Assembly: GCA_017506865.1 (NCBI GenBank)
Contig: JAFCMP010000002.1
Location: 310,001 to 374,000, forward strand
Direction: 5' to 3'
Length of the DNA: 64,000 bases
Origin: Tribonema minus
Lineage: Eukaryota > Sar > Xanthophyceae > Tribonematales > Tribonemataceae
The notes beneath the pieces were generated by a model. That model was not told the DNA's origin, made no database searches, and saw only the letters and a program-made list of their open reading frames with translations. Every line of letters starts with the position of its first letter. The stretch's first letter is position 1. The translations under genes and the position numbers were made by a program. This document shows positions 10,294-64,000 of this stretch, piece by piece.

Positions 10294-10760
10294 GCTTTAG
10301 GGCTAGGGTTAGGGTTAGGGTTAGGTTGCTTTCAGGTGCGTTGCCAGGGGCTAGGTCGGGCCAATGTTACATCGGCACCGCAGCAGTGCGAGAACGCATT
10401 GTGTGGTGCATCCGACTGCAGGCGAGCGGGTGTGCTGAGCCATGCTGCCTCCCCTCCAGTCTCATGCACACGGGAATGTGTACACACGGGGGTTAGGGTT
10501 AGGTTTAGGGTTAGCACACATTTACGCGTCGCTGAGCGCAGCGCTTGGGGCTAGGGTTACGGTAGGGTTTGAAGAAGGTAGATAGGGTTGCACCAGCACC
10601 GTGAAGCTATGGCGCATGCCACCTGCCCCTGCTACTTAAGGGTTAGGCTGAGGGCTAGGACTGGGGTTAAAATTAGGTAGCAGCTTGACCGCGTTCAATG
10701 ACGCCGTTCGTGGCCCAGTCCTCGAGCAACCCAATCACCAACCCTAGCCTCAGCCCTCAT
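10294..10760 (+). repeat. Cluster of interstitial telomere-like TTAGGG repeats
   Basis: At 10297-10324 there is GGGCTAGGG then (TTAGGG)3-like sequence, with further short runs at about 10490-10516, 10547-10575, 10640-10680 and 10738-10760 in both exact and degenerate form. This is the densest such cluster in the window and it lies between genes. Confidence 0.85.
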
Positions 10761-21321: not shown

Positions 21322-24300
21322 ATGTAGCCCTGAGAGCCGGCGCCGGTGCCGCTACAGCTGCCCATAGTGCCGCTGGTGTTGTAGGGAAGCTGGTACCGCT
21401 GCTGGTGGGGGCGGTGGTGCTGCTGCTGCTGCGGCGGCGGCGGCGAGTTGCGGCGCTGCGGTGGGGGCGACCGCTGAAGGCGCTGCTGCTGCTGCTGCTG
21501 CTGCTGCTGCGGCTGCTGCTGCTGCGGCTGCTGCTGCTGCTGCTGCGGCTGCTGCGGCTGCGGCTGCTGCTGCGGCAGCGCAGAGCACTGCTGCAGGTAC
21601 TGCTGCCCCGCAGCGAAGGCGTCGCGGCCTGAACCCGCAGACAGCACGCGCCGCGGCGGAGGCGGTGAGCGCTGCAGCCCTAGCGGATGCTGCTGCTGCA
21701 TAGCCCGCATCACCCTTGGGCTTGCATCGCTGTTCCTCCTGTAAGCCGCAATGTCATAGCTGCCATAACTGCCGCCGCCGCCGCCGCCGCCACGCCCTCT
21801 GCTGCTGTAGCCGCCGCTGCTGCGGCTGCTGCCCGCGTCATCACGGGTGCCCTCGAAGCGCCGCCTGACATCGCCGCTGCCGCCGCCGCCGCCGCCGCTG
21901 CCGCCGCCAAATCTGAATCCGACATCGCTGGCATCTGTCCTTGCTCCAGCGCTAGAGCGCGTGTCGACGGTGCGCTGCGCGTAGGGCATCTGCGGCGGGC
22001 TGCCACGGTATGTATGTACGGGAGTGGGCGTGCGCAGCGCCTGCATGCCAGCAGCGGCGGCGCCAGCGGCAGCGGCAGCGGCGGGGGGGTCTCTGACGGG
22101 GGTCGTAGGGCCCTCCGCTGGCGGCAGGCCTTTGATGAACAGGCGCGCAACGAGGTTGGTGGCAGCGTCTATTTGCGCGGGGGCGCCGCTGATGCGGAGT
22201 AGGTAGGTATCCCGTCCTGCTGACTCGCGCTGCAGCTGCGATGGCACACCCAACAAGTGCTTGAAGTTAGGGTTGAGGTTAGGATTAGACCGTGCGCTTT
22301 TCACTTTTCAGCGTGTGCAGTGACGCTCCGGCTGCTTGCAAACTTCAAGCAGGCAGTTGACATATATCATGGAAGTGTACTCTCTGGAATGCAATACTTC
22401 ACTGCATTACAATGAAGCCCCGCCCCCGCCCGCTAAATAAGTTGACGCGCTGTCAGCTGGCACATTAAGTATGTGCGCAACTGTAGTGTGGCACGTCACC
22501 CCTGGCACACTTAGAGTGCATCGTGCACAGCGCACATTGTAGTCACGCAAGGTATACCCACGGACGCGCACGCTCGCAAGAACCTGAACGTATGACATAA
22601 CTTCAACGTCACCTCCCCTCGCCCACCGATCGCATCGCCGTCGGGTCCCTCTCACACCGACTACGCGGCGATGCGGCACGTTACCTTGACACCTGAAGTA
22701 TTTTGACACACATGAAGCGCTCTGTAGCCACAAGGTATACATACCTGCAGTCGTGCGCTCGTGACGTCCTGTATGTACTCCATGACCTCCCCGCCCCTTC
22801 CCGCCAGCCGTATCGCCGCGCCGTTCGCAGGCACGTCGAATACGCGGCTGCCCTGATTCTCCGTGTCCCCCTGCTGCGTGCCCCCCCGCGCAGCCTCAAT
22901 CACCCTCACGGTGTGCTCCACATCAGCCGCCTTGCCTTTGATGGAGACTGGCGAGCAAGCACAGAGGCAAGGTTGTTGAGTACAATGTGCCATTGAAGGT
23001 GCAGATGCAAAGGTAGCGGCACGTACTCTTTTCATAGTATACGAAAGCTGCAGCTTTGATGAACGTGATGGTGTGTTCAACATCAGCCGCCTTGCCTTTG
23101 ATGGTGACTGGTGAGCAAGAACAGAGGCGAGGTTGAGTATGAGGTGCCGTTGAAGTTGAAGATGCAACTGGTAGCGGCACGTACCCTCCTCTTACAGTAG
23201 TATATGAAAGCTGCAGCCTCCATCACCTTCACGGTGTGCTCCACATCAGCTTCCTTGTCTTTGATCGAGACTGGCGAGTGCAAACAGAGGCAAGGTTGTT
23301 GAGTACAATGTGCCATTGAAGGTGAAGATGCAAGTAGCGACATGCACCTTTCTCTTGGTATACGAATGCGACAGCCTTTATCAGCTTCGTGGTGTGCTCA
23401 ACATCAGCCGCCTGGCCGTTGATGGAGACTGGCGAGCGTGAACAGAGGCGAGGTTGAGTAAAATGTGCTGTTGAAGTTGAAGGTGCAAAGGTAGCGGCAC
23501 GTACGCCTCTTAACAGATGAAAGCTGCGGCCTTAGTTGATCACCGTGACAGTGTGCTCAACAACGGCCGCCTTGCCTCGAGACTGACTATGCGCAGACAG
23601 ATGCGAGGTCAGCATCAGGTGCTGTTGAAGTTGTAACTGGTTTTTCAAGTATTCATTACACCATACCCTACTATCCAGGACGCTTAGACGCCAACACTAA
23701 CCATTATGGTGGCTCGACCCCTTCCCCCTCGACACAGAGATTTGGACGCTGGCACGCGTGTTCTGTGCACTGGCGCAAGGCACAGGCTATTGCTACCTTC
23801 TGCCGGCACCTTCCCCCCACAGATGGGCTTGCATGGTCTCACTGCAAGTAGGCATACTCATTGACGACCTGCTACCTACCCCTACTGAGTAGAGCATACC
23901 TGCCCCTAGTTCTAACCTTCAACCCTGGCCCTAATTCTAACCCTGGTCCTAACCCAAACCCTAGCCCTAATTCTAAACCTACGTTCAACCCTAGACTAGC
24001 GCTGACCTTGCATGATCTAAGGATCCGTGCTGTGTTCGAGGTTAATGACCGTGTCATAACCCTAACTCTAGCTACCCCTACTTCTAAACCGACAATCAAC
24101 CCTAGACTAGCTCTGACCTTGCATGATCTGAGGATCCGCGCTGTGTTCGAGGTTGATGGCAACTGCGTGCCAGTGCTCAAGCCGCTTGATGCCCATGCCA
24201 TAGTTCCCTATCAGCACTGCAGCCTGCAGGACAAGCGTGGGCATGAAACTGGTACATGAATTGGTTCATGAATCAGAGTGAATGTCATGTCATGCCATTA

Positions 24301-36941: not shown

Positions 36942-39900
36942 ATGGCGGCAGCGGCGGCGGGCGACCGCATGGGCGACAGCCAGAGGTCCAGCGGCAGCGG
37001 GGCGAGCGCTGCAACTTCAAACTTGAAGTTCAAGGCCACGTGGATGGACGACAAGGACAGCGAGGTGTGCCTGCTGTGCGACCAGGTACGTATGTATGTG
37101 TGTATGCTCACGTCATGTCAAGCATACATACCTGCCAGGTATGTATGTATGCTCACGTTGAGCCCCTCAAAGAGCGTCACGGAGATGAGGTTTAGACCGC
37201 GACGTGAAGTTCAATTGCAGGGTGGTGGCAGGCCCTGTCTTTTATTTGTGAAGCTCAGTCAGCAGGCCATGCAACAGCACGTGCTGGGTAGTCTATCGCA
37301 ATCGAGGTGCGAAGGTGTAAAGTCAGCGCTCAGCGCGCCTGCAGTAGCGTTGTTGCGCACCTGCAAAAGCCTCTTACCGTCCCTGCATGCCGCATAATAC
37401 AGTCATTGCTGCACATCGTCACCTGACGGAGCAGAGCTCAGCACATATTGAGGCTGGGTCCGCGGTGAGCACTGCCACGCCACCACACAGGATTTGCATT
37501 GCGCTCCTAAGTCACCTTTCGGTTATCACACCTGCATGCGCACCTGCAAGCCGCATGACGCAACGGTCGCTGCACACGGACCATCGACAGAGGAGGGGTC
37601 AGCACATGTTCAGGCCGGGTCCTGGGTGCGCACTGACTTGCTACTTGAGACAGAGTTCGCACTGTTTTCGTAACTGAATAGGCTAATTCACTCCTCAATC
37701 GGCAGACGTGCGCTCATGAGCTGTGTCTGCTGGGTCACTTGCTCGTCCACCTCTAGCACGGCGGTAGCGCTATGTGCTGTCAGGTTACATATGTTGACCG
37801 AAGGGAGTTATATTGACAATTGATTAGCTCCATTTCTACAGCGCCAACTTCAACACCAGTTTCAACAGATGTCATGAGCAATGGCCGTAAGCTGCGTGGT
37901 CCAGCTGGACTGCGAACAAATGGTCCCGCCTTACAACTTCAACGCTTCTTGAAGTGCACAGCAGAGGCTGTCATCGTGACCCCTGTTGCAGATGTCACAC
38001 AAGGTCTGGCAACTTGAAGTGCAAGACATTGGCTGCCAGAATGTGCTCACTTGCTAGTGCGATGATGCAGTACCAGGCCTGCATGTTCACCGTGTCCCTT
38101 TTGTTGTGCAATTTCCTCTGGCATTTTGTGTGCATGCCACCAGGCCTTCACGTTCACCAACCGGCGACACCACTGCCGCTCCTGCTTTAAGCTCGTGTGC
38201 TCCAGCTGCAGCGGACAGTGAGTACATACCTACATGCATGACTTGGAGTACACGTACATGTACAAGCTGTGAATACATGCATACTTTGGAGTACGCATAC
38301 ATGCACGCCTAATCCGATTGTGTGCTCCAACTGCAGCGGACAGCGAGTACATACCTACATCCCTTGGAGTACACGTACATACATAGCTTACCATTGGCTC
38401 TTTTGTGCTCCAGCTACAGTGGACAGTGAGTACATGACTACATACCCTGTATGTACACGTGCATACATTGGTAGTGAGATGGTCTGCTCCAGCTACGGCG
38501 GACAGTGAATACATACGTATCTGCATATACAACCTTGCATCCAGTTCCCACATTGATACGTATAATGCCCATTGACATGTGGACCAAGCATGCCTATATA
38601 CCCGCATACATGATGTGGATTCCTTGCTCATACTTCTTTGTTGAAGTATCGACGATGGATGAAGAGTTACGGTTTGGTTGTGAACTGAAGTTCCGGGTGC
38701 GCTCTCGCTGATGGCCCCCAGAAATGCGCAATCATGCGCTGCATCGATGCTCAACCAGAGACAGCACGCCACAAGTTGCCCGCGCCAACAGCAGTGGTTT
38801 GCAACATGAAGGACAAGGCGTCACCAAAGTTGCCCGTGCGAACGTGCAACGAGCGTCTTGAGGAGGGGGGCGAGAGACGCTGCTCACGATGGGGTTCATT
38901 TGGGTTTCCTTTCTTGGCGGTTTATACTTGCTTCTAAGTACACTGTTGTGCTTGTTTACCAGTCTTTGCCCAGACAGTTCGGTGCATTACGGTTTGCAGC
39001 AGCTGCGCACTGTACCACGCACTGCGCCGTAGTCCGTAATGTCATTCGCTCGTACCTGCAGCGATATTGCACCGTCAACGAGCACCCCGAAGAGCGTTTA
39101 CTGCTGTGCTCTGTATTGCGCTGTACTGCACTGTACTGTCCGCAGCAAGTATGAACTGGGCGTTCAGTTGCCTCACACAGTGCACCCCTGCTCTGTACCG
39201 TACTGCACTGTACTGTACTGTACTGTACTGTACTGTCCGCAGCAAGTACAAGCTGGGCGTGCAGCAGTCGCCTCACACAATTAATCGCTGTATTCTGTAC
39301 CGCACTGCACTGTACTGCACTGTACTGCACTGTACAGTCCGCAGCAAGTTCTACGCTCAGTCTCCTTACACAGTTCACAGCTGTACACTGTACCGCACTG
39401 TACTGCTTTGTACTGCGTGCAGCAGTACGAGCTGGGCGTGCAGCAGTTGCCTCACACAATGCACCCCTGTACTCTGTACTGTACCGTACTGTACTGCAAC
39501 CACTGTCCTGCGTGCAGCAAGTACGAGCTGGGCGTGCAGCAGTCGCGGTCGGGGCGCGTCGCGAAGCAGCGCGTGTGCGACGAGTGTCACGCCAGCCTCG
39601 AGGCCACCAAGGAGGTGGACACAGGCCTGTGCGACCCCCGCACGATTGATCCCACACAGCAAATGCAGGTATGTATGCACTCATGTATGTTGCATACAGT
39701 ATGTGGTACACGCGCTCCGTGGTTGAGCACTGTGTCATTGGGCCTGTGCAACCCCTGCACGATCGATCCGGCCCAGCCAATGCAGGTACGTACTTCAGTA
39801 GTAGTCTGTATTTGCGTACACGCATAGCGTCGCTGAGCACTGTGTCAATGATTGGTGGACACACGGGCCTGTGCGACCCGCGCACGATCGATCCCGCCCA

Positions 39901-42900
39901 GCAAATGCAGGTACGTGTGTATCTGTGTGCAGGCGTGACTTGGGTGATTGAGCGCTGTGTCACTCTGTGACGATGATGACTGGTGGGCAAATGCATGCAT
40001 GTGTGTATCTGTGTACATGCGCAGCGTGGTCGGGCTCTGTGTTACTTGACGATGATAGGTGGGCTTGGGGCTGTGTGTCCCCGCACGATCAATTCCGCCC
40101 AGCAAATGCTAGTATTTTCACACACGCGTTGTGAAATGGGTGAGCACTGTGTCTCTGTGACGATGGTGGACACAGGCCTGTGCAACCCGCCGCACGGTTC
40201 ATCCCCACTCAACAAATGCAGGGGAGCATGTGTGTGTGTTGACACAAGTGCAGCATGCTTCAGCACCACTATGAAAAATTGTATGGATGTGCCGCACAAA
40301 AGTTCCCACCCAGCGACTGCAGGTGTACATTGGTGTTCCCTTCAACTCTCATGATTGGATTCCTGAGCATGTGCCACGCGGAGGGACAACGCTACTCCTT
40401 CCCTAACCCTAACCCTAGCCCTGAGCGGCGCCAGGCTCCAGGGCCCTAAGTGGTGTCCAATCAAGCCTTTCGTACTTGTCCTTGCCATCGAGCCGATGCA
40501 GATGCTCCTTGCCAGTTCTCTATTGCCAGGCAGCAAGCGGACGCGGGCAATCCATGCGCCTAACCCTAACCCTAACCCTAACCCTGTGCACACCGTTGTG
40601 CACCAATGGCGGGTGCTTGCAGCGCTGCCACTGCAGAATCCGGTCGTGCAGCCAGACCATTCACGCAATGCACATCTGCAAGGCACACGTGCTCGTTGCT
40701 GACGCTCAACAGACAATCTCAACAAAGTGACGCACCTTTCATACACTACGAACAAAGGTGCACATCGTGTCGGCGCATGGCCCGTGTCGCGTCTCCACAA
40801 CTTCAACCGTCAAACATACAACCTCAACAGAGTGACATTTCACCTTATTCAACACGCCATACATCCACAACCACCATCACAGGTGCGCATATACGTCATG
40901 TCGGCGTATGGCCTGTGTCGCGTCTCCACAACTTCAACTGCCAAACATCCAACCTCAATGAAGTGACGCATCTTTTTTCACACATCTTACATCTGTAACG
41001 ACCATCACAGGTGCGCGTGTACGTCATGTCGGCGCATGGCCTGGCCCCCTCACCACCCCCAAGCACCTCCCCCTCCTGGGAAAGCACCAATCTGGGGGGG
41101 TCGATGCTGGGGGGGCTGGCACAGGGGGGTGGGGGCACCCTAGGGGGATTGAGCCCTAAGAGGGGAGGGGAACCTGTAACAAGCCCCCTGAGAGATGGGG
41201 GGAGGAACCTGGCTCCCTACTGCCGCCTCACCGTTGCCAACAAACAGGTGGGGCATGCACTGGAAATCCTTGGAAGTTTGCGGTATTTGAGAGGTGATTG
41301 GCAGAGGCGCATGTTTGTGGTGTATGGTTTCATGTGGACAAGTCATTCATTCATGCAGTCAGTGATGTCGGGTGTTGCCCTACTGACGTAACCCTTACCC
41401 TAATCGTAAAAGTAAGAAAGTATGGGGTGGCTGGCGTGCATGTATGTGTTCAAAACGCACTCAAAGTTGCTTTGGGTGCATTGTCACTCCGCGTCAGGGT
41501 GCTGACCTAGTCTGGAAGCTTGCGAAGACCGCTCAACTTCAACATTGCTACATGCGTGCATTCACAAATTCTCAAGTACAATCTCGCTGTGCACAATGTG
41601 CATGCGGACCTTGACTCTTGTATGGAACTGTGCCAGGTTTGGCACGGTCAGGGTAAATGCAGCGCAAGAGCGCTCAGCGCCTGCGGAATGAGCTGATTCC
41701 ACCACCCGTGCCATGCATCATGCTTAAGTACCTTGCTGCAGAAGGCCTGCGAGGCAGTGTCATGACTCATAATCGTGCTGTGACTCTGACTTATGCCGTG
41801 ACTCGTGGTTGTGTGCGAGGCAGCTGCTCAGAGCTCAGAGTCAGGGTTAGCGTCACTCATGCCATGACGCGGGCACGAGCCATGGCAGTACACTTGTAGT
41901 GCATCTGGCAGTACACTTGTAGTGCATCTGTAGTTTCTGTGCGATACTTATCCAAAGCATTGCATGTGCCTACGAGCTCTCATCAGGCACACCACAGGAC
42001 CTAATATATTTAACCCCAACCCCTGTTCCTGACCCGATCAGGCGCATAAACAAGAGGCTCTGTCAGAAGTATCCTTGAACAGTACGTTATCAGCACAATT
42101 ACAAGGCCTCTTTTTGCAAACGTGCTGCTGGCTACACGCGTAGATCCCTAAGTCACTTCTGCCTCTGCGACTACCCCTGACTCTGAAGCAAAGTCGGTAC
42201 CCGACACCATCATGCATGGCTGTCTATCTGCCCACTCTGATTCTGAAGGACGCGCTGGCAGTGCGGCGCTATCACCGTGCAGCTACTTGCACGCGCACAA
42301 TGGCAAGACGCGCTTTTGCAGCCCAATTCTGACCCTGAACTTGAACCGGCAGGCGCTGATGCAACAGCCAGCGTTACTTTTTCGGTGCCACGACAACACC
42401 GTGCAATTCCTAACGTGCTGCTGATTGTACACGTACAGTAGGTTTAGCAAAGTGCGCTTCTGCAGCCTGAGTCTGAACCGCTAAACCGGCATGTGCTGAC
42501 CTGAAACCCAGCATTGGTTCTGATGTGCCACAATAAAACGGAGCGACATTGCAATCGTGTGCTGCCGCTTGTACGTGCAGGTTGGCAAGACGCGCAGCAT
42601 CGAGTCAACCGCGCCGCAGTGGGGTGAGATGTTTGCCTTCCGCGTGCGGCTGACGTGCCGCGTGGCGGACTACGTGGTGGTTCAAGTCTTCGACAAGCGG
42701 TCCAGGGTGAACAGGTAATGTACTGCAGGGAACTGGTGCTGTACTCGCCAGAAACCGCACGCATGTGCATCATGTGTAGCGCCATTTGAACGACACCGCC
42801 AGCAGCGGGATGCGGCACTCACCCCAGCGCTATCATATAGAAGGTGCTGCCTGGTGTGCAGCGTGTTGAGCTGTCGTGTTTAAGGATAGAGAAACCATAT

Positions 42901-45900
42901 CCCTGACCCTACTTCTTTCACGTGGCTCAGCAAATGTTCACTTCTCCCTTGTTGCTAAACTCCCGCATCACAAGCTGCGTGTACCACGCGGTGCATTGGA
43001 ACCCGAGCAGCTGCTAGGCTTCCTGTCAGCAATCCCCCTTCAATCGAGGGCATGACTGCCATGTGCTTCGCGACAGGTGTGCTCTCAGTAATGCAACTAG
43101 TGCTGCATGCATACACAGTATGCACACTCTGTACATACAGACCTATACCTATCTGGTCTTTTCCTATCGCAGCGACGACCTCGTGGGGCACTACCGCGTC
43201 CCCCTATACACCATGGCCCAGAACTCGTGCGCATCGCAGCGGCACGCAACTCACATACGTACACACGTACACAGTACACATACCCATACCTATTTTCCCC
43301 TCCGCTCTCATTGCTGCGGCGATCTCCTGGGGCACTGCCGCGTCCCGCTTTACACCATGGCCGAGTGCGTCGCAGTGGCAATTAACTCACATACATACAT
43401 ACGTATGCACACAGTCCCATACCCATACCTACCCCCCCCCCCCCCCCCCCCCCCCATACCTATCACTCTGCAGCGATGACCTCCTGGGCCACTGCCGCGT
43501 CCCGCTATACACCATGGCCGAGAACTCGCGCGCCTCGCAGTGGCACGCAGCTTACATACATACATACGCACACAGTGTACATGCCCATATCTACCCCCCC
43601 ACCGCTCTCATCGCAGTGATGACCTCCTGGGCCACTGCCGCGTCCCCCTATACACCATGGCCGAGAACTCGCGCGCATCGCAGTGGCACCGCCTGTACCA
43701 CCCCACCGCCATGGGCATCACTGAGGGGCGCGTTCACATCGTGGTGGAGAGGGGCAGGGGGGGTCCGCTGGTGCGACACGCGCTGCGCTGCGCGCTGCCG
43801 ATGGCCTCGCCTGTCGTTCCGCTGTCCCCTGGGAAGCGGTGCCGTGGCGGTGACCAACACCTCGAAAATGGTGCGTAGCGAGTGATCTCTGTCATAAGCT
43901 CGTAGTTCACCTGTCATTGTGCGGTGCGGCGATGCACAGGCGGGAGGGTATGCTGCCATAAACATGCGTTGTGCTGAGCGCTGCCGATGGCCTCGCCCAT
44001 CGTTCCGCTGTCGCCTGGAAGACGGTGCCACGGCGGAGAACAGCACCTCGAGAATGGTGCGTATTGATCGCTGTGCAATGGTAGATCGCACTTCGACTTT
44101 GCATGTCCCTGTGCAGTACGGCGGCGGGGGGGGGGGGGGGGGGGGGGGTACACTGCTGCTTATCATGCGTTCTGGTGAGCGCTGCCGATAGCCTCGCCTG
44201 TCGTCCCGCTGTCCCCTGGAAGGCGGTGCCGTGGCGGCGGTAACCAGCACCTCGAGAATTGTGCGTAGCGAGTGATCTCTGTCACAACACAAAAGTCAGT
44301 CTTGACCTGTCATGGTGGAGTGTGGCGATGCTCTTAGAGGGTATGCTGCGATAGAAACACGTTTTGCTGAGCTGCCAATGGTAATGGCAATGGCCTCGCC
44401 CGTTGGCCCGCAATCCCCGGCCACGCGCTGCTGCGGCGGCGACCAGCATCTCGAGAATGGTGCGTATTGATCACTGTCAAGCGGCAGGTTGCACGTCGCA
44501 TACACACTGAAGTTTCATTGCGCAGCACGGCAACGCAAACAGAGGCGCGAGGGTATGCTGCTGTGAACTCGCATTTTGCTGCACGCTGCCAATTGCGTCG
44601 CCCGTCGTTCGCTGTCCCCTGGAACGCACAGCTGCGGTGGCGGCCAGCACCGCAAGAACGGTGCATTGTCATATCACCGAGCAACAGCACGATCGGTCTT
44701 CAAACTCTGAGATGTCATCGTGCAGCACAGCTCATCGTACAGGGGGGGGGGGGGGGGGGGGCACTGCTGTGGGGCGATTCAACGCCGCCGCGCACAGCAG
44801 CAGGGTCAAAAGCTCCATTGCGGCAGGCACTCAGCTGAGCACTGCTGATGGCCAGGCCTATCGTACTGTGCCCCAGTCTTCCGGACGACAGCGCTGTGAG
44901 AACTTCGTCAAACAGCACATTGCGCAATCCTTGCATCTGCCGCCTTCGCTGCACGCACAATTCGGCTGGACCAAATCTCCTCGCCCCCCCCCCTCCTTCG
45001 GCCACCTTTTAGCAGAAAGCAGTCACCACATTCACCTCACCGTACCATCTTGGGGTACATGCACGCCACCAACTGTAAAAAACGACTGTTACTCTGTAAC
45101 AGCTGACTGTCATCGTGCGCCATCTGCACCTGCTGCCTTTGCAGTGCGACTGGACGAGATCTACCCCCCTGGACACCCCGTGCACCGCCGCCTCTTCCTA
45201 CGCGTGCGGCCTGGCACCTCGCGCGACGCCTTCGTCCCTTGCAACGAACGTCTGCTGGAGGCAAGTTGAAGATGCATTACCAACGTTTAGGGTTAGCGTT
45301 AGAGTAGTGCCGGTTGCAGGGCAAGGTTAGGGTTAGGCGTGCGACCCGGCACCTCTCGCAACGCCTTCATACTGCGCAACAAGCATCTGCTGGAGGCAAG
45401 TTGAAGATGCATTACCGCCATTTAGGGGCAGTTAGAGTAGTGTCGGTTGTAGGGCTAGGTTAGGGTTAGGATGCGGCCCGGTGGCTTGCGCAACGCCTTC
45501 GTCCCGTGCAATGAGCGTCTGCTGGAGGCAAGTGAGCAATGTAGTGCAACGTGTAGGTCTAGGGTGAGCATTGGAGCTAGGGTTGGGGTAATTTATGGTT
45601 TTAAGTGCGTGCCCCGGAACCTCACGCAACGCGTTTGTCCCGTGCAACCAGCATCTCCTGGAGGCAAGTCGAGCAATGTAGTGCAAGGGTCAGGTCTAGG
45701 GTGAGGCAGATTGGAGGTAGGGTTGAGGTAAGGTGAAAGTTGGGGTTATGCGCGCGCAACGGACCCTCACACAACGCTTTCATCCCGTGCAACGAGCGTC
45801 TGCTGGAGGCAAGTCGAGCGATGCAGTGCCAACAATGATGTAGATCAAGGTCAGGGGTGAGATTAGGGTGGGGGCCAGGGTAGGGTTACTCAGCAGCTTA

Positions 45901-48900
45901 CGATATTCGATCAGCGGTGGGCTGTCACACTGCAGCATGACCAGCAAGCCGCAGGCTGCAAGCACAAAACGTGCCTAAAATTTCATCCGCTTACATTCCC
46001 ACCACCAGTGACTTTGAACTTGAAGTGTTTAAAGCAGAGCACCCGCCCGCGCTTGCACCAGCTCACATTCCCCATCACTAGTTTCTCGTGTCATGACTGC
46101 AAACTTGAAGTGCCTGCACACAACGCCTGCCTGGCCCCTCCCCCCACCCTCTTCGCTGTGCATCGCCATCGCCCCTCCCCTATTGCTCCCAAATATCATG
46201 ATAAAAGCCTCGCCTGTGGCATTGCTATCATTTGCGCACGCGTTTGCCGCTTTTACTCGCATGTGACGTAAAGCGTCGCTCATGGCATCATCATCGTCTG
46301 CGCAGGCGTTTGCTGACGCGCGCATGCAGCATCAGCCTCTGGGGCGGCGGCGTGCTGAGCAGCTGACGCCCAAGCTCGACGGCAGCGGCCACACTTCAAC
46401 ATCAACTTCAAGCCTGAACCTCAACAGAAAGGGCGCCTTTCTGCTGACGACGCACCGCGTCATCTTCATCGCGACCGCTGCGCGCGAAGCGGCGGAGGGC
46501 GGGCCGCAAGGTGAAGTTGAAGTAGGCCACGTTTACCTACAGTAGGTTAGGTAGCAACAGTATCACTTGCATGTGCAACCTCACCACCGTGTGCCAGATA
46601 TGGACAGCGGAGGGCCCCGGGCTGGTGCAAGATCCGCGGCTAGTGCATGTGCTGCTACAAGTGGTCGTCAAGACCCAGCTCGCTACACCTGCAGATAACT
46701 TCAACTTGAACTGTCACAAGTCAGCAACCATCATGCGTGGGTCTGTCAAATGAGCAACCACCACCATTGCTGCGGTCCAAGCGACTGTAAATGCGCGCCA
46801 GCATGGCTCAGTGTTTCGTCTAGGCTTTATGCTCATCTAACTTCAGAGGTGAAGTTGGTGGAAACGTTGCAATTGTCATGACGAGAGCTTCATCTGCAAG
46901 CTGATTGGCTAGTCGCCGGAACAGCGTCTTTCATCGCACCGCAGCGCCGCCAACAGCCGCACCAAACCTCAGTCCTAACCCTAATCCTAACCCCCTACTT
47001 TCGAGGTGCAGGGGTATGGGGCGAGGAGTACCCGCCCTTTGACGTAGTTCAAGTGCCCATCGCCATGGTGGAGGAGACGAGTGTGAAGCGAAGGTGGCAG
47101 GAACACCTGGCGGCTATCGAGCTGCGCTGCCGCGACTGCAAGGTCTACCTCTTCGGTGAGTGCTTCCATAGGTTTATCTTCGATAGCCGTTGGCGTGTGG
47201 CATGACATACTTAATTAGAAGTATTGTACTTAGTAAGCAGTGACTGAACTGCAGTGACAGCAAGCATGGATTGCGGCAGGACCACCTAGCTGCTATTGAG
47301 CTATGCTGCCGTGGCTGCAAGCAAGGTATACCTCTTCGGTGGGTGTCACGGGTTTATTCTTGACAGCCATTGGCATATGGCACGACAGTTTTATTCATTG
47401 TAGTTGGCAGTGACTGACTTGCAGTGACTGCTAGCGTGAACTGTGGCAGCCCACTTGGCCACCATACAAGGTCTGCATCTCCGGTGGGTTTCGGTCATCC
47501 TTGAGTGCTTGCAGCCCTCACACTGATACACTTTGTGAAATTGAAATAGTCAGAAAACAATTGAGGATTGACATGCATGACCACCTGGCCGCTGTTGGTT
47601 TGCGCTGCGGCGGCGGCAATGTCTACCTCTTCAAGTTCACCGTTGTCAGTCGCTGTGGGCCCAAATTGATGCATGCTTCTTTGACCAGTTCGAGGTTCTT
47701 GTTCAGTTGTGCGCAGTGACTGACTTGAAGTGCAAACATAGTGCAGACGGCAGACCTGGCCACGACTGCAACACTCTCAACGCACAGAACATGCCAGAGA
47801 ATAGCTTGCACAGACGAGTGACGACATAATCGTGACTGCACCTACAAAGGCACTCCTGTTTGTGTGCAAGCGGCAGAGTAGTATGTAGCTAAAGGACATG
47901 AGCACCAACTAATAGGATTACGGTTAGGGTCAGGGCTAGATGAAATGTTGTAGCACGCAGCCGGCAGTGAGCAAGTGAAATGAAGGACAGTGAAGCTCAT
48001 GGCGAGCACAGCCGCCCGTGACAGCATCGAGGGCGGGCTGTGATGAGCGCAGTCAGCGCTCTCAGGGCAGTGCTCAATGCTCACCTTCACATCATGCATA
48101 CATACCTTACGTTTCTATAGTACAGGTATCGCCGCCAGCGACAGCGCTGAACAGGACCTGTGCCACATGTATGCCCCACAGTGCCTGGACGGCAAGCTTC
48201 ACCGCTGTCACTGTCTCTCTTCTGGAGGTAGCTTGACAGTATGCTGAGCCAAGGGCCCTGCCACAAACCCTTGATTTCCGCGCCGCAATACGTCCTCACA
48301 AACCCTTACATACCCCTACGCATCTACAGGCATCGCCGCCAGCGACAGCATCGAGCAGGACCTGCGCCACATGCAGGCGGCGCAGCGCCTCGAGGGCGAG
48401 CTCGCGTGGCTGCGGCGCGAAGACGGCTTCGCATCGCCGACCGACACCTCGCGCGCCGACGCCCCGCTGAGCAATGCTGCAGATCCGATGAGCGCTGCTG
48501 CAGAGGGGGTGCGCCCCCCTCCCCCCTCCATAGACCCCCCCCCTCCCCTCCCCGAGGAGGACTGGAGCGAGGGCCCGAGGCCTGGTAGTGGGGGGGGGAG
48601 GGGGAGCTGGGGTTTGAGGGGGGGGCGGGGTGGTATGACGCAAGGCGCGAGTTTGAGCGGCAGGGGGTGGGGGGGGGGAGCGGGTGGCGGGTCACGGAGC
48701 TCAACACGGGGTACAAGTGAGTACGTGCGTGTACTGTGCGTGTACTGTGTGTGTACGCGCATGAGCGCTGCAATGGTGCATGAGGTTGGGTTTGATGCAC
48801 AACGTTTGGTCTTTCGTGCAACTGCGATGTGCCGTGGAATAGGGAGCAGTGCACCTTTGAGTGAGAATTTGAGGCCTGTATACGATATGAAGGTCCACCT

Positions 48901-51900
48901 GTTGCGGCTCATGCGTCGTGCAAGTGTGCATGCACTCCAAAGCTCTAAGCCTTCGCTGCTCTTTATGATACCTCACCACTCTGCCATCAGTACCAGCAAG
49001 TGCAGCACAGCTCAATACACCTCTTGCCCCCCCCCCCCTCCCCCCCCCCTCGCACTTTGGGTATGTATCAGGCTCTGCCCTACCTACCCCCGCCTGCTGG
49101 TCGTTCCCGATGCCACCCCGGACGGCTCCTTCCTCTTCCGCGCGACGCAGTGGCGCATAATGGGCCGCATCCCAGTGCTGACGTGGCGCCACCCGGTGTC
49201 GGGGGCAGCGCTCGTACGGTCGTCGCAGCCCATGTGCGGAGTCTCCGGTCTCATCGGCGGCGGCAGCTGCCCCGAAGACGAACAGTCCCTGATAGCGATA
49301 CGGGAGACAGGTGCGAGGGCAGTCAGGGGGCCACTACTTGGGTGGGGTGGGGAGCTGTCTATTGGAGTATGTAGGGATGGTTTACTGTTGAGGGGGCAGC
49401 GCGCCTGTGCTCGCCGCAGCCCGTAGCGGCAGCAGCAGGTGCCGTGAGGACAAGCATGCGCATACTTTTATGCACATACATACACATGTATATATAGATT
49501 GCCACGGCAGCGGCGACCACAGTTATTGGTGGAAGACATTTGCGGCTAACCACCCCCTTGTCACCTAGAGCGCTATGATCTTGAATCGTTTCCATAGAAA
49601 TACAGGGTTGGGATGAGGTTGATGGTCAAATTATGGTCGACCTAAACTCAGCAAGGCAGGGCTAGCCTTAGGATCAGCACTGCGGGCCTCATGCAGGGCT
49701 AGGGTTGGGATCACAATCAGGGTGGCTTATGTCAACCTCACTTATCACTTCATGCAACTCTTCGCTGCCTCTGCAACATGCACCAAACAACATGACAACA
49801 GGCAAGCAGAAGGATTTCAGCCAGGTGCCCCCAAGGCCTACGCGTCCCGAAGAGCTGGTGGCACGCCTCCAGGCGCACCTCGCGCAGCAGCAGCAGCAGC
49901 AGCTGCTGCGGATGGCTGCCACTGATGGGCCGAGCGCCGATGGCTCTGGCAGCGGATGCTCAGCAAGTGGCATGGCGCCAGGTAGCCCTAATTGCGACCC
50001 GAACGCTAAGCGTGCAACGCGAGACTGTGACATGCAATTGTTGGGAGGTGATCGGGTGCATGCTTTGCAAAGGCAGCGCTCTATACACATTTCTGTACAC
50101 CAAAGTTTGAATTTGTGTGTGCGTGCGCGCTTGAACTCTGGTATTTGCCCCACCATTGTGTGGCGCACTGCTGATGCGTCAGGGTGGCAGGCATGCCTAG
50201 AGTTTGAATCAGGCTTAGGGCTAGAGCTGAGCTTTGCGTAGGGTTAGCTCTGTGATGCCCATGATTGTGCGCTTTGCTCTATCGGCGCACTGATTCGTGC
50301 CCGCTTGCATAGGCAGAGCATTGCGGCAGGGAGCACAGAGTGGATCACTATGTATGGAGTATACATACATAACTACATATAGGCCTCCTGATCATGAGTA
50401 AGGAAGTATGCAGTCTTGCGCATCCACACCCGCGCATCAAACACATCAATGGTTGACCACTGCTGTCTTGGATTACCGTGCTGACAGACAGTATGAAGGG
50501 GACTCTGCAATTATTGGGAAAACAGGGCTTTCTTGCACACCACCAACCTTCTCAACTGTCACCGCCGTTGGCAAAACAGGCGTTGTCATGTGGGCGAGCA
50601 CTGAGCTGGAAGGCCCTCTGCCGCTAAAAGCCAGGGCTTTATTGTACACTGTCGTACACGTCTGCAGCGCAGTTTCTTATCTGACACTGCGGCTCGCACA
50701 ACAGGTGGCGTCATGTGGGCGAGCACTGAGCTGGAGGGCCACCTGCCGCACTGCTGTTCTGAACTGTCGTCTCAGCAACTAAGGCTGCACTGACAGGCCA
50801 TATGAAGGGGACTCTTCAATGGTGTGGAAGGCCGGGCTTTGTTGCACACCAACCTCACTTTTGAATTTGAACTTCATCTGTGAACTTCATCTTTTATCGC
50901 GGATGGCGCAACAGGTGGCGTCATGTGGGCGAGCACTGAGCTGGAGGGCCCCCTGCCGCCAGTTCGCGGGCATCCGCGGCTACACATTGTGGACGCGCGC
51001 CCGCAGCTCAATGCCAAGTCGCACTCGCTGCTAGGGCGGGGACACGAGGTATGTATGTATGCAGTGACTGTATCCTCACATACATACCCTACATCATTGA
51101 GGAACACATGCTGACATGCACTACATCAGTGAGCAATTTTGCAGCTCAACGCCAAGTCGCACTTGCTGCTGGGGCGCGGGCAAGGGTGTGTATGTATATA
51201 TGGCCATGCTATACTCACATACCCTTGAAACAACACTCGCTGCTGGGGCGCGGGCATGAGGTATGTATGTATACGTGGCTGGCAACGCATTAGTCACATA
51301 CCCTTGAAGACGAACCTTGGATACCCTCCATCGGCTCCTGTAGCTCAACGCCAAGTCGCACTCGCTGCTGTTGCGCGGGCATGAGGTATGTAGTGGATGC
51401 ATCCCAACATACGTACCCTACTAATCCTACCCTAACACTAACCCCAAACCCCAAAGCTCACTGTGTGTATCCTGACATACGTACCCTACTCATCCCAACC
51501 CTAATCCTCACCCTATCTCTGACCCTAAACCTCACTGCGCGCATCCTCACATTCATACCCTGCATCGGCGAGGAACACATGCCTACATGCCCTATATCGG
51601 TGAATGCATCCGGAGCTCAAATGCGCAAGTTGTACTCTTCGCTGGTGCGTGGACGTGGGCTATGCGGTATGCATGCGCGCTTTATTCAGCAAAATGTGGG
51701 GCTTTGAACGCAGCGGTTTCTTGCCGTTGATAACCGTCAAGCGCCACCGTCGACTTCGCGCGCTCAATGCTGTGAGGCATACTTGCGTAGTTAAACAGTT
51801 GTAGTTAAACCGGATGCGTGCGTCGATTTAGGATCCCTATACGAGCCATTCTGTCATCGTATGGAAGTATGCTTCTCAAGATGTGCATACGCACGTGCTG

Positions 51901-54900
51901 ACAGCCTGCTAACAGCTGTGTTGATCGATGTGATCGCAGCATACTAGTTGCAGCCACTATTGTGTAATGCAGCATGCGCGTTTGTGCATGCCAGGTAGTG
52001 AGAAGTATGTACATCATGCCAAGCGGCTTCATCTACCACAATACGTTCTCTCTTCTCGACGTGTCTTTTTTGCTGCGTACAGGTTATCAGCCGCCTGGGG
52101 GGGTCTGAACGCACGACCCTGAGCTTCATGGAGATTGACAACATACACGTGATGAGGTGAACTCAATACGCTATGTGCGCATCAGCGACATGTACCTGTG
52201 TAACACTGATGTGCATGTGTATGTATACACGTGAAAACACACGACGTACTTGAAGGTATGTGTTGGCCTTTTTGACAAGAAAACACCAAGAAACACAATT
52301 GCTTTGGTGCACAAAGGGACGCAGTACATAGATGTGAATCGTGATTAGGATCTGCAAACCCTCATTCTTGAAGGTGTGCTGACAACCATTGGCGTGTCAT
52401 CTCACGTCTTTTCAGTGCAAGTGGCCCCTACATGTACTGGTACAGTACACTGTACTCTGCTGATGCAGTGCGTTGAAGCAGCTGATTTCCCAACCTGATG
52501 CGTCAGTGGCTATGCTCAGTAGATGGGGAGGGGGGGCTACATGAATACGCACAGAGATGCTCCACTGGGCATGACGCAATGCTTTCTTGAAGTGAGCGAA
52601 CTGTCGTTCACTTCAAGTGTGACATTGCTCATCGCAAAGTGACATGAGTATGTGCTGTGCAATCGAGTGCACATCGGCGCCGCACGTGACAGCGCTCATA
52701 CTGCCACACCGCACTTGAATATGTCATCAAAAAGCTTGCATAGGGCCACCAGCCTGACACGATTTCCGGTGCATTGCACAACCTCATTTATCTTCCAGGC
52801 AAACCTGCAGAGCATTCCCGTGCATCGCTGCATGCTCTGCCAGTATGTGTGCAGCTACATGGCCTGATTCTGTGTCTGCTGTTGAACATGAGTACATCTT
52901 GAAGTAGCTGAATGGCTTAGGTTGATTTTGATCCATTCTGCGGAGCACTCAGTGTAGACTATGTACACCGCATGCGAAGGCACTGGCATCGGAACGCCTC
53001 GCAAAACGGCACCAAAATGCGTGCTGTACCATCAACTGTAACGCCTGCAACTCATGACGTTTGGGGCCTCGCAACTCAAGGCTAGGTGCATTGGCAAGCG
53101 CGACAATCTGAGCTACTGAACACAATCAGGGGCTTCGGTACAGCAGAGTTAACTTCAGACGGGTGTACTTAATCCCTATAGTCACTGCTTCCAGTGTACC
53201 CTGTAGACATTTGCTGATCACTGCATGCGCACATTGTTGTCTTTGTTGCTGTGCTGTTGTTGTGTTGCGCGTGCGCAGGGAGAGCCAGGCGCACTGGGGC
53301 CACCTGACGCAATGTCATGGAAATGCTGCTGTAGCGCTATCATGGTCGAAAATGCCCGCTGTACCACTACCATGCCCACACTTGCAGAGCACTAAGTGCG
53401 CACCGTGTGCGCGCGAGGGTGGCCGAGAATGCCTGCTGCATCACTATCATGTCAACATTTGCTGAGCGCTGCTTTCGCATCGTGCGCGCGCGCAGGGAGA
53501 GCCAGGCGCACCTGGTGCGTGCTGCACGTGCCGCTGACGACGACAGCTGGTTCAACAGCCTGCACGTGTCGGGCTGGCTCACGCACGTGCGCAACATCCT
53601 CAGGTGCGTAGCTGTGGCAGTTTCAAATTTGACAGTTGCAAAGCGTGACAGTTGTGGAAAAGGAGATGGTGCGCAACATCCTCAGGTGCGCGGCTGCGAC
53701 ATTTACAAGTTTGACGATTACACATTCATAAAATCATGAAATGTGACAGTTGCGGAAGAGAGGTTGCAGGAGAAGCCTGCATGTGAGGGTGCTGATGGGT
53801 GCAGAAAAAGTGGGAGATAGGTTGGCTTGGCAGTGTCCAGTTGATGTTGCCCCTCACAAGGGGCAAGTAGCGGCAGCAGCGGCTGGGTCTACTGGTAGTG
53901 AGGAGCATTCAACAGTGTCGAGCATAGCGCATCACGAGGGGGGGGCGGTGAGTGAAACCAAGAATTAGGGTGTCAAAGGGGGCTGCATGTGTCGAGTAGA
54001 TTATTGCATGTGCGCAATGCAATCAGGAACACCTGCATGCAGCTAGGGCGAAACCCGTCAGCACCTCAACGAGATCGACAAGACAGCGCGCCGCCGCGCA
54101 CAGCAAGCATGTCGTGGAGACTTCGAAACAGCCAATAAAGTTTCAGGAAAGCTCCTCCGACCTCACGGTCAGGTCGCTCTTCAGACTCCGTTTTATATAT
54201 ATATGGAAACGAATCAAAAGATCGTAGATATATATATATATATATTTACATATATATCTAGACTGCCTCCACAAGAAGCCATCCTCTGACCAGGAGTCCC
54301 CCGCCGCGCGCTAGGGACTACGTGCACCTATTTGCGCCCGGCTTCGCATCCCACGTGTCCAGGTACAAGGCGGCGGGAAGTGGTCAGATCGCCGCCCGGC
54401 ACGCGCATCACAGACATCTGTGGCGGCTCGTGTCGATGGTGGGGCTGGCGCATTAGACGGGGCTGTTGCCTCAAAGGTCGAGCCACTGCCGCGAGTGCGA
54501 GCGCGAAGCTGTCAGGCACAGAGTCCGGGCTACACCGGCCCCTTCTGTCCCCCTCTGCGTCAGCCTGCGCCCCCCCCCCACTGTTAGCAGAGGCTTTCCC
54601 CCACTTATGGGGTCAGATGATGATGATTCCCCTACCCCCGCTCTTAACGTACATCGCTGCCAGGCTCACACTAAGAGTAGAGTGTCGTGTTGCTCGCTGT
54701 GATCCCTTTAGGCGTGCTTGATACCGCCGGGCGCCGTGGCAGTTGCACGCATGCTGAAACTCAGGCGATGCTGCACAAAGCTCAAAGTTGTAGTAGAGTG
54801 TTGCTGCACCATGACTGGCCCATTGCGGGCCCATTGGTGCGTGCCTGTCGTCGCAGGGGCGCCTTGGCAGTTGGACGTATTTGAGGCGGGCGTGACCCCG

Positions 54901-56919
54901 TGCTAAACAAAGCGTAAAGTTGAAGTAGCGTATCGTGCTGCAAACTTTTCTCTGACCCCATTGTGCACCTGTCATCGCATGCCTGGCGTCGCAGGGGCGC
55001 TGTGGCGGTTGCACGCATGCTAGAGGCGGGCGACCCGGTGCTGGTGCACTGCAGCGACGGCTGGGACCGGACCAGTCAGATCTGCTCGCTGGCGCAGCTG
55101 CTGCTAGGCAAGTCACCACTGGCGCGCTCATCTACCAGGAAAAAACACCAGTCACTGGCAGTCAGACCACGTTGCCGCTAGGCAGTTTGCGCCGTTTACA
55201 CCTGCATGCCGATGTGCAAAACCGACAGTGACATGCTCGCTGGCGCTGCCGCTAGGCATGTCGTAACAGCGTGCTCATGCGGAAAACACACCAGGTCAGC
55301 AATTGGCACCTGTAGGCGCAGGCACAAATAGTGCGGGCCAGATCTGGTCGATGGTGCACCTGCTGCCGAGCAAGTGGTGCCAGCACGTTTGCACTCAACA
55401 TGTTGGTGTACTGCACTTCAGAAGGGTACACAGAGAAATCGGCTGAGAATCGTGCAGGCTGCAAGTATGCAGTTGAAGTACAGTCCTTCATGCTTGACAA
55501 GCTGGATGCGAGCGCGCAATCTTACGGTGGAAAGATGCTTACACTTCAAGTCTTCACGAGTGTGCTTCATGTGCTGAACAGCACGGCCGAGCATGCGCCA
55601 CGTCCTTGTGCTACTTACACATGCAGTAGCAGTAGGCATTACTTGCTGTGTGGAAGACGTCACGTGTGGTTGAGAGCATTTTGAACGGCGCCAGTTCATG
55701 TTGATCGATCATATTACGGACAGTATTGCTCGTCTGTCGGCCTCTATGCGCTTCTGAGTGAAATTTGCCGGCAAGCACCATTCCCTGCAGCATCTCGTTG
55801 CAATGTCACAACAGCGTGCTCGTCTTCAACTCAGTGACCCCCCCCCCCTCCCTCTCCTTTCCCCCTGCAGACCCGTACTTCCGCACCATCGACGGCTTCC
55901 GCGTGCTCGTATCAAAAGACTGGGGCAGTTTCGGCCACCAGTTCGCAGCCCGATCCGGCTTCGGAATCTGCGAACCAGGGGACGCCTCCCCCATTTTCTC
56001 GCAGTTTCTGGACGCAGTTTGGCAGCTGCTGCAGCAGTTCCCCACCGAGTTTGAATTTGCGGAAGAGCTGCTGCACGTGCTGCTCGCCGCGTGGCACGCG
56101 CGCTGGTTCAGCGACTTCAACTTCAACAGCGAGCGCGAGCGGCGCCGCGAGCTGCGGCAGGAGGCGACACTCCTGCTGAGCGCTGAGCACGGCGGCGGAG
56201 CGTCACCTGCGCACTTCAACGCTGCCGCCGGCAACCCTGACGACACTCCTGATGGCGATGCTCATTGCGGCCTTGGTCAGAATGGCGGTGGCAGCGAGTT
56301 TATGGGTGTCCATGGAGGCGCCGATGCTTGTAGTGACTGCAGCAGACGCGGGAGTGGCGCGAGTGGCACCGATGATGATGACTGCGAGGCAGCATCATCC
56401 ATGCGCACCGCTAGCGTCTGGGAGCACGTGCGCTGCGAGCGACACCTATTTGCCAACCCTCTCTATGCGCTCGCGAGTGCGCCGTTTAGAGGCCCTGCTG
56501 CGAGCCTCCCACTCTCCTCGCAGTCTGCTGCCGGCGACGCTGCGGCAGTGGAGAGCAGCGCTGTGAACGGCTCGATGGACCAACCATCAACTTCGCCAGC
56601 CAGCAACATTGCAGCAGGTGCTGGTGCCACAAAAACTGGGCTAGCGCAGTCACTGGGAGGACGGCTTGAACCCATGTGCGACCTACGTGCATTGCGCGTC
56701 TGGACACGTGCCTACTGCGCCAGTGACTTGGGCGCAGGGCACAGGTTCGATGCAGCGGGGGGGGCGCGCGCGGCTGCGCTGGAGTGCATCGCTGCGTCCC
56801 AGCGGAGTCGCATCGCGCACCTGGAGCGCCAGCTGCAGCAAGCGCCGCAGCCACCGCAGCAGCCGCAGCAGCAGCAGCAGCCTTCGCCGCAGCAGCGGGC
56901 TGCGGTCGCCGCGGGGTAG
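36942..56919 (+). CDS. FYVE-C2-GRAM-myotubularin phosphoinositide 3-phosphatase, 17 exons
   Basis: Exons: 36942-37085, 38144-38217, 39518-39668, 41011-41247, 42581-42714, 43617-43870, 45145-45260, 46306-46510, 47012-47155, 48330-48716, 49072-49310, 49802-49981, 50915-51048, 52083-52156, 53496-53603, 54995-55107, 55871-56919; about 1,247 aa. FYVE (exons 1-3): [27 protein letters not shown], giving all eight zinc ligands and the PI3P-binding basic patch. C2 (exons 4-6): [48 protein letters not shown] (exons 8-9): [31 protein letters not shown]. Phosphatase (exons 10-17): [48 protein letters not shown], and HCSDGWDRT with the complete C-x5-R site, then [10 protein letters not shown]. It should remove the 3-phosphate from PI3P or PI(3,5)P2 on endosomes. 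Introns 7 and 16 have GC donors. Exon 10 needs one extra base or a micro-intron within poly-G to keep frame. The C-terminal tail is polyQ/Pro. Confidence 0.92.
38194..38520 (+). repeat. Donor-side echo array of FYVE exon 2 (four copies)
   Basis: The functional end GTGTGCTCCAGCTGCAGCGG + donor at 38194-38225 recurs at about 38316-38356, 38401-38440 and 38479-38516, each with its own GTGAGTACATAC-like or mutated donor. Copy 2 has GCGAGT and copy 4 has GTGAAT. Confidence 0.88.
39136..39545 (+). repeat. Acceptor-side echo array of FYVE exon 3 (five copies)
   Basis: GCAG|CAAGTACGAGCTGGGC-like copies at about 39136, 39234, 39337, 39415 and the functional 39507, spaced about 80-105 bp and separated by TGTACTGTACTG-rich filler. 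Only the last continues into the conserved zinc-binding sequence. Confidence 0.9.
39624..40228 (+). repeat. Donor-side echo array of exon 3 (five copies)
   Basis: The exon end encoding [15 protein letters not shown] plus donor (39624-39690) is echoed at about 39737-39795, 39858-39920, 40064-40115 and 40170-40228. Donor states vary: GTACGT, GTACGT, AGTATT and GGGAGC. Confidence 0.9.
40558..40585 (-). repeat. Interstitial telomere-like (CCCTAA)4
   Basis: Four perfect or near-perfect CCCTAA units in intron 3 of the myotubularin gene, with a related run at 40398-40425. Confidence 0.9.
40755..41060 (+). repeat. Acceptor-side echoes of C2 exon 4 (three copies)
   Basis: Copies at about 40755-40815 and 40875-40945 precede the functional 40998-41060. 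All contain GTGCGC(A/G)T, ATGTCGGCG(C/T)ATGGCC and, in the echoes, CGTCTCCACAACTTCAAC. Confidence 0.85.
42112..42610 (+). repeat. Acceptor-side echoes of C2 exon 5
   Basis: The segment TTGTACGTGCAGGTTGGCAAGACGCGC (functional, 42568-42594) has weaker relatives at 42416-42455, 42285-42315 and possibly 42125-42150. Confidence 0.6.
43168..43700 (+). repeat. Four copies of the C2 exon 6 acceptor and first ~70 bases
   Basis: Copies begin near 43168, 43313, 43471 and 43611 and each reads (S)DDL(V/L)GH(Y/C)RVPLYTMA in frame. Only the fourth continues into the rest of the exon. The spacing of about 140-158 bp includes repeated ACATACATAC and a poly-C tract. Confidence 0.92.
43797..44665 (+). repeat. 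Five copies of the exon 6 end and donor
   Basis: CTGCCGATGGCCTCGCC through the CACCTCGA(A/G)AATG|GTGCGTA donor recurs at about 43978-44062, 44183-44272, 44372-44466 and 44584-44665 after the functional copy at 43797-43880. Poly-G tracts lie inside the array. Confidence 0.88.
45205..45820 (+). repeat. Five copies of the exon 7 end with a GC donor
   Basis: The end encoding [10 protein letters not shown] plus GGAG|GCAAGT recurs at about 45338-45408, 45470-45535, 45605-45675 and 45750-45820, spaced about 135 bp, with TTAGGG-like sequence between. The non-canonical GCAAGT is conserved in all five. Confidence 0.9.
46222..46335 (+). repeat. Acceptor-side echo of GRAM exon 8
   Basis: Block 46222-46262 (ATTTGCGCACGCGTTTGCC...) mirrors the functional 46295-46335 (GTCTGCGCAGGCGTTTGCTG...). 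The AG has become AC in the echo. Confidence 0.7.
47090..47645 (+). repeat. Donor-side echoes of GRAM exon 9 (four copies)
   Basis: The functional [17 protein letters not shown] end (47090-47160) is followed by copies at about 47268-47350, 47448-47495 and 47572-47640. The first two carry GT-to-GG donor changes (CGGTGGGT) and the last keeps [17 protein letters not shown] coding sequence. Confidence 0.85.
48121..48385 (+). repeat. Acceptor-side echo of exon 10
   Basis: 48121-48185 repeats ACAGGYATCGCCGCCAGCGA and the following bases of the functional copy at 48326-48385, about 203 bp downstream. Confidence 0.85.
50573..51670 (+). repeat. Echoes on both sides of phosphatase exon 13
   Basis: Upstream: two acceptor copies (50573-50635, 50697-50750) of ACAGGTGGCGTCATGTGGGC. 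Downstream: four donor-side copies (51142-51190, 51229-51275, 51342-51395, 51612-51670) of AACGCCAAGTCGCACTCGCT plus GGTATGTATG. The functional exon (50915-51048) sits between. Confidence 0.9.
53272..53700 (+). repeat. Echoes flanking phosphatase exon 15
   Basis: 53272-53310 copies the acceptor and RESQAH start. 53668-53700 copies the end (GTGCGCAACATCCTCAG + GTGCG). Confidence 0.75.
54193..54262. repeat. (TA)n-rich tract with dispersed-repeat fragment
   Basis: Two TATATA runs flank GGAAACGAATCAAAAGATCG, the core of the dispersed repeat seen at 11021 and 25303. Confidence 0.85.
54725..55262 (+). repeat. Echoes flanking the catalytic exon 16
   Basis: Upstream copies of GCGCYGTGGCAGTTG-CACGCATG at 54725-54770 and 54850-54905. 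A downstream copy of TGCTCGCTGGCGC-CTAGGCA at 55224-55262. None contains the CSDGWDR codons. Confidence 0.8.

Positions 56920-58216: not shown

Positions 58217-64000
<5,784 letters not shown>

Follow-up and report, generated by a model that had tools for sequence, protein, structure and literature searches.

Local tandem echoes of exon edges in introns of the yellow-green alga Tribonema minus

A FYVE, C2 and myotubularin gene and its echoed exon edges

The window analysed here is a stretch of 64,000 nucleotides (contig C2, 310001–374000) from Tribonema minus, a yellow-green alga of the class Xanthophyceae with an assembly of 158 Mb in 554 contigs. Its main gene lies on the forward strand (36942–56919) and carries FYVE, C2 and myotubularin phosphatase domains, as identified by a domain search. 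The 17 exons and 16 introns of this gene were called by hand from reading frame, splice phase and homology. The introns measure 355–1391 nt, and their donors are GT in 14 cases and GC in two, those of exons 7 and 16. Two deposited T. minus proteins correspond to the gene (models P0241 and P0243). When the first half of the gene was searched in translation, one of them matched at 100% identity over 25% of the query; the second matches the gene at 98% over 29% of the query, and, among the matches listed, the two overlap 10 of the 17 hand-called exons. A deposited model joins exon 3 directly to exon 5; by eye, a counterpart of exon 4 is present in the relative P0242. Exon 10, which is rich in poly-G, shows a slip of the reading frame (48560–48690) that could be due to a homopolymer error or, alternatively, to an overlooked small intron. 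Runs of poly-G or poly-C of at least 9 nucleotides occur 17 times in the window.

Pfam found kinase domains in the six exons that were tried from the neighbouring kinase genes, which we take, on our own reading and not from a tool, to be PDK1 and a MAPK. The single exon of the putative KH gene that was tried gave no Pfam match. No match came from a search of the window against Rfam, from a query of plasmids with a piece of one exon or from a search of viral contigs for a relative.

To score echoes, the terminal exon sequence at all 32 exon edges of the main gene, of no more than 60 bases per edge, was compared by alignment with the intron next to it, with the remaining introns and with reverse complements. 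At 15 of the 32 edges, a score above 27 was obtained in the edge's own adjacent intron, and two further edges reached 26. Scores in the intron on the opposite side of the exon were at most 24 (30 edges), and no edge is echoed there. In the comparison with other introns, some 14 for each edge, one of the 32 edges exceeded 27, owing to a low-complexity stretch at the 3′ edge of exon 10. The 15 echoed edges have 39 copies in all, with one to five copies each; copies of a 3′ edge come after it and those of a 5′ edge before it. Steps between copies measure 80–200 bp in 30 of 39 cases, the arrays cross the splice junction, and 24 of the 39 alignments end at the exact exon edge. The echoing of exon edges in adjacent introns is confirmed. 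In effect, the original prediction had counted at least 13 borders of this gene as recopied in the adjacent intron, with copies that contain exon bases, the splice site and some intron bases, and it holds on both points.

All the arrays of the main gene are on the forward strand. The 3′ edge of exon 2 (38144–38217) is followed by three copies (38195–38526). Exon 3 (39518–39668) is echoed on both sides, with three copies upstream of its 5′ edge (39096–39546), the nearest of which is translated in P0241, and five downstream of its 3′ edge (39614–40323). The 5′ edge of exon 4 (41011–41247) has two copies (40762–41043), while exon 6 (43617–43870) has three of its 5′ edge (43166–43689) and three scored copies of its 3′ edge (43740–44769). 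Downstream of exon 7 (45145–45260) lie four copies of the 3′ edge (45199–45833), in each of which the GCAAGT donor is intact. Two copies are found for the 3′ edge of exon 9 (47012–47155; array 47096–47634), and one near-junction copy for the 5′ edge of exon 10, which starts at 48330 (48121–48402), with a weaker second match at 48006. Exon 13 (50915–51048) has two copies of its 5′ edge (50481–50959) and four of its 3′ edge (50997–51660), and the copy ending at 51385 corresponds to a 14-residue insertion in P0243. Each edge of exon 15 (53496–53603) is represented by a single copy (53279–53518 and 53587–53715, respectively). Finally, exon 16 (54995–55107) has two copies of its 5′ edge (54729–55042) and two weak copies of its 3′ edge, the one with a GC donor (55108–55370).

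The pattern had also been claimed for PDK1, the KH gene and the MAPK, and clusters of echoes are indeed present at the two kinase genes and at the putative KH gene. On the reverse strand, the kinase gene that is PDK1-like by our reading has an exon-edge array at 2234–2610, beside an exon called by eye and weakly predicted (2583–2673, score 3.8), and the 5′ edge of exon 22745–22935 of the putative KH gene is present in about 3.9 repeats (22890–23633). On the forward strand, exon 60918–61109 of the downstream kinase gene, which has a Pkinase domain, is accompanied by an echo of its 5′ edge (60745–60963) and by an echo of its 3′ edge that is 89% identical (61039–61353). A further array belongs to the 3′ edge of exon 62470–62652 (62622–63139).

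A self-comparison with exons masked had been proposed as a check of these claims: in the main gene, partners were found within introns for 61% of the probes inside echo zones (187 probes), versus 7 of 411 intron probes that lie more than 200 bp from those zones, which were set by the detected echoes. Comparison of echoes with echoes alone makes 10 of the 32 edges detectable. By a hand sum, the distances from edge to farthest echo in the 15 arrays amount to about 5.6 of 16.2 kb of intron. Introns with echoes have a mean length of 1136 nt (n = 11), compared with 748 nt for those without (n = 5; p = 0.057).

Some short motifs are also abundant in the window. ACTTCAA was counted 42 times and its complement, TTGAAGT, 44 times, versus about 3 expected for each, in introns and in some exons. 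CATACATAC and GTATGTATG are present 14 and 13 times, versus 0.2 and 0.1 expected, and by eye several of their copies lie directly beside splice sites in echo arrays. In addition, telomere-like TTAGGG and CCCTAA hexamers (34 and 27, versus 7.0 and 6.1 expected) are scattered over the window, introns included; for instance, at 10297–10325 and 40559–40585.

Exon edges in a wider genome sample

The survey was extended to a sample of 64 sources that includes the window and totals 326 kb, with 258 predicted exons. The sampled loci were picked by domain matches and are not random, and overlapping ones (L001–L004, L008, L017 and L023) were left out. Exons were predicted with a simple finder of our own, trained partly on the main gene and on Pfam-matched segments, and the predictions include false and antisense exons. 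Exons scoring below 10 and edges with low-complexity ends or short flanks were excluded from the edge counts.

Outward matches scoring at least 32 were found at 69 of 348 predicted edges, compared with 11 of 348 on the wrong side and 2 of 348 in the reverse complement. A count of adjacent matches against shuffled introns had been suggested as a further check; in this sample of 64 sources, matches to any of about 12 unrelated flanks occur at 8 of the 348 edges. In the 30 helicase loci alone, match ends scoring above 40 are on the expected side in 9 of 60 cases and on the wrong side in 1 of 60. The copies are local, in the same orientation and head to tail. Under permissive scoring, the alignment covers 0.8 or more of the offset in 59 of 96 pairs that span an edge. 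Echo alignments reach to within 3 bp of the junction in 93 of 112 cases, and splice dinucleotides are retained in 79 of the 112 echoes. A DNA search of the genome with exon 3 returned nothing beyond exon 3 itself and two echoes of it; the search is not exhaustive, since other echoes of this exon were missed.

Two small fragments that match the RuBisCO large subunit, with one stop codon each, were also observed (G000:C334:714136-714324 and C112:516888-517037). Perhaps these are plastid DNA inserted in the nucleus.

The placement of duplications relative to exon edges was assessed with clusters of local duplications, leaving out low-complexity pairs and, for the placement counts, also pairs that are almost wholly exonic. 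A confident exon edge is covered by 78 of 120 clusters, versus 33.7 by random placement inside the same loci (s.d. 4.6, maximum 50 in 400 placements). As exons are conserved, exon–echo pairs remain visible for longer, and the search was therefore repeated with exons masked. In this setting, 52 of 90 clusters span an edge, versus 26.7 expected (s.d. 4.1, maximum 41 in 400 placements). The first masked run, also like for like, had given 52 of 90 versus 29.0, and the value of 26.7 follows from a slightly different filter. When the best pair of a masked cluster is at least 90% identical, 8 of 16 are at edges, versus 3.2 expected. Clusters with a single noncoding pair are at edges in 20 of 47 cases versus 10.7 (10 of 37 versus 6.5 in an earlier grouping), and those with multiple pairs in 32 of 43 versus 16.1. 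Since single and multiple clusters are both in excess, no claim of unbiased founding duplications is made. The number of noncoding pairs per cluster is 2.42 at edges and 1.61 elsewhere (p = 0.0012).

Two earlier sets of figures were set aside: an unmasked value of 78 of 120 versus 30.0, in which any pair of a cluster had been compared with best pairs only, and a multi-copy value of 42 of 53 versus 18.2 together with a whole-exon expectation of 5.8, for which the comparison was not like for like. Copies of whole exons, with both splice sites, account for 3 of the 120 clusters, versus 6.6 by placement (s.d. 2.3), and for 2 of 90 with exons masked, versus 6.4 (s.d. 2.1). This hints that whole-exon duplications may be depleted.

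With exons masked, the rate of duplication is nearly flat up to 600 bp from exon edges, at 9–14% per probe, with 16% at exon ends. Among 10 complete arrays with more than 90% matches that were reported by a tandem repeat finder, 9 lie off predicted exon edges and 1 is inside an exon; 3 of the 10 are within 22 bp of an exon edge. Neither result shows specificity for edges, and both would be expected if duplications fell anywhere and those at edges were detectable for longer, since the exon copy is unchanged. Pairs of exon and echo would then diverge at d and pairs of intron copies at 2d, and the pairs that can be tested fit this relation (see below). Nevertheless, edges are still in excess once exons are masked, both in the full set of clusters and in the singles, and the intron probes of the main gene beyond 200 bp from echo zones rarely match their own intron (7 of 411). 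Thus, longer detectability as the entire explanation is conceivable but doubtful. The observations are read as widespread small tandem duplication, with greater retention or amplification of its products at exon edges. The original prediction had spoken of a repeated copying of splice junctions. The arrays it described are real at many loci, but a special process of junction copying is not needed, because neutral decay fits 31 pairs, the noncoding rate is nearly flat and the youngest complete tandem arrays do not overlap predicted edges.

Decay of the echoes

Relative to their exons, 93 echoes from 58 families have 592 differences in total, of which 269 (45%) are synonymous. Given the observed transition bias, a neutral echo of a constrained exon should show 41%, and constraint on both copies would give 70%; the observed share differs from the neutral expectation with p = 0.017. 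Among echoes with an identity of 88% or more, synonymous changes account for 107 of 189 differences, above the neutral prediction of 40% (p = 5 × 10−6), and in those below 88% the count of 162 of 403 fits the neutral prediction. The echoes also have indels, at 114 positions, and 7 stops. Two or more echoes are present in 24 families; here, a change common to all echoes of a family is placed on the exon branch, and such changes comprise 21 synonymous and 11 nonsynonymous ones. The echo-specific changes of these families (76 synonymous and 125 nonsynonymous, including 3 stops) are nearer to neutral. The nearest copy is the youngest in 15 families versus 9 (p = 0.31), with no clear trend.

The exon and intron parts of an echo can be compared through a formula of our own, which assumes a neutral echo and a constrained exon and predicts exon divergence as half the intron distance multiplied by 1.27. 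It was applied to 31 pairs, namely those of the 93 echoes with an alignable intron side, which were chosen for this alignability. The exon parts of these pairs show 180 differences over 1783 sites (10.1%), versus 175.4 (9.8%) predicted from the intron side. At p < 0.01, one of the 31 pairs is too similar and one too different. A kinesin exon edge at locus L069 (exon 4075–4266) has echoes at +233 and +533. The intron side of the +533 echo is about 21% diverged, and its exon part has 0 changes in 66 bases, versus 9.2 expected (p = 1 × 10−4), which makes this echo a candidate for gene conversion.

Conversion from exon to echo might also keep the cores of echoes young in general. In addition to the outlier at L069, identity is lost at the junction in several loci, and over all echoes the identity of the intron side is about 0.66 irrespective of exon identity. 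The latter decoupling was considered as a sign of conversion and dropped, given that alignable intron sides, with substitutions only, fit the neutral model; moreover, a constant intron-side identity may come from indels and unalignable flanks. As 29 of the 31 testable pairs are within neutral expectation and one alone is too similar, conversion has been abandoned as the main account, a role in which it now seems improbable. The synonymous excess in the best-preserved echoes and the identity at L069 could stem from conversion, allelic history or past use as exons.

That synonymous excess would also be expected if echoes were functional alternative exon ends under selection, as would the retained splice dinucleotides. 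The deposited models even make use of echoes: P0241 reads through the nearest exon 3 echo (by eye), and P0243 includes an exon 13 echo as its insertion of 14 residues. Nevertheless, this insertion is missing from the three aligned relatives (P0001, P0003 and P0242), the overall synonymous share is near the 41% of neutral echoes and far from the 70% expected if both copies were constrained, and the echoes have accumulated the indels and stops listed above. A functional role is, if anything, slightly less probable than general conversion.

An assembly artefact or false duplication is a very remote prospect. The frame slip in the poly-G of exon 10 does show that homopolymers may be misread; by contrast, the copies have their own substitutions, indels and flanks, are regularly spaced and occur on many contigs. 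The statement that they are individually diverged is upheld.

Origin of the arrays and their consequences

The reading that we favour, with a probability of about 0.7, is recurrent tandem duplication across splice junctions, in which the outermost copy is kept in use and the inner copies decay neutrally. Small noncoding stretches, mostly of 80–300 bp, would be tandemly duplicated over and over. Where the duplicated stretch lies over an exon–intron junction, homology suggests that the outermost junction (the first donor or the last acceptor) stays in use. The mRNA would consequently be unchanged, and the inner copy would become a neutral echo, which makes the intron longer and decays there. Such half exons, with a single splice site, are probably tolerated because they escape recognition as exons. 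The excess at edges, about two-fold, may arise because similarity between a constrained exon and its echoes outlasts that between two intron copies. Such lasting homology could, in turn, offer a template for unequal exchange and yield further copies: the exon copy cannot drift, so it would stay homologous to its echoes and prime new tandem copies. This exon-anchored ratchet, through which exon edges would seed intron growth outward from their own splice junctions in this lineage, is a hypothetical and tentative extension, and we consider it rather unlikely.

Intron growth is commonly attributed to insertions, those of transposons among them. Tandem exon duplication, for its part, concerns whole exons that are often used in splicing. 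The T. minus arrays resemble it as local duplications within genes, but consist mostly of half exons with one splice site. Among the matches listed in a literature search, no description of such echo arrays appears in titles or abstract openings. On the same basis, the nearest case is one potato gene, in which a tandem duplication across a splice junction, a single event, gave rise to a new intron (PMC4974935). There, as in T. minus, the duplication crosses the junction, and the copy takes over the splice signals of the parental structure; in contrast to that one gene, event and new intron, T. minus has repeated, decaying copies in existing introns at many edges. Direct repeats near intron borders, as outlined in the abstract of another report, are 4–30 bp long (mean 11.4), come from a comparison of the two borders and are read as insertion marks (PMC11782384). 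They are likewise close to splice sites, whereas the T. minus units, of about 80–300 bp, repeat one border only. Introners, as summarised for PMC9860276, also change intron content in a lineage-specific manner, but they are dispersed related elements, while the copies in T. minus are local to each exon edge. An origin from introner-like or other mobile elements, which would agree with introns that grow and with copies that carry splice sites, is hardly credible, since no shared element dispersed among genes was seen in the non-exhaustive exon 3 search, with its matches to exon 3 and two of its echoes alone, or in the comparison with about 12 unrelated flanks, any of which are matched by 8 of 348 edges.

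The arrays have consequences for annotation. The deposited T. minus models P0241 and P0243 cut the main gene in two, omit one exon and translate echo sequence, and other gene models of this genome may be affected. Gene models of T. minus that translate echoes are thus a warning, as illustrated by one protein with a 14-residue repeat that none of three relatives has.

At about one-fifth of the sampled predicted edges of this one genome (69 of 348), the echoes leave a visible record of another route of intron growth. Where both sides align, each array has its own clock, in the form of the exon part versus the intron part, and intron growth becomes measurable edge by edge. The arrays also raise a question for the spliceosome, namely how the outermost of several intact sites is picked. 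In general, junction-spanning duplications could help introns to grow, and they can mislead gene annotation.
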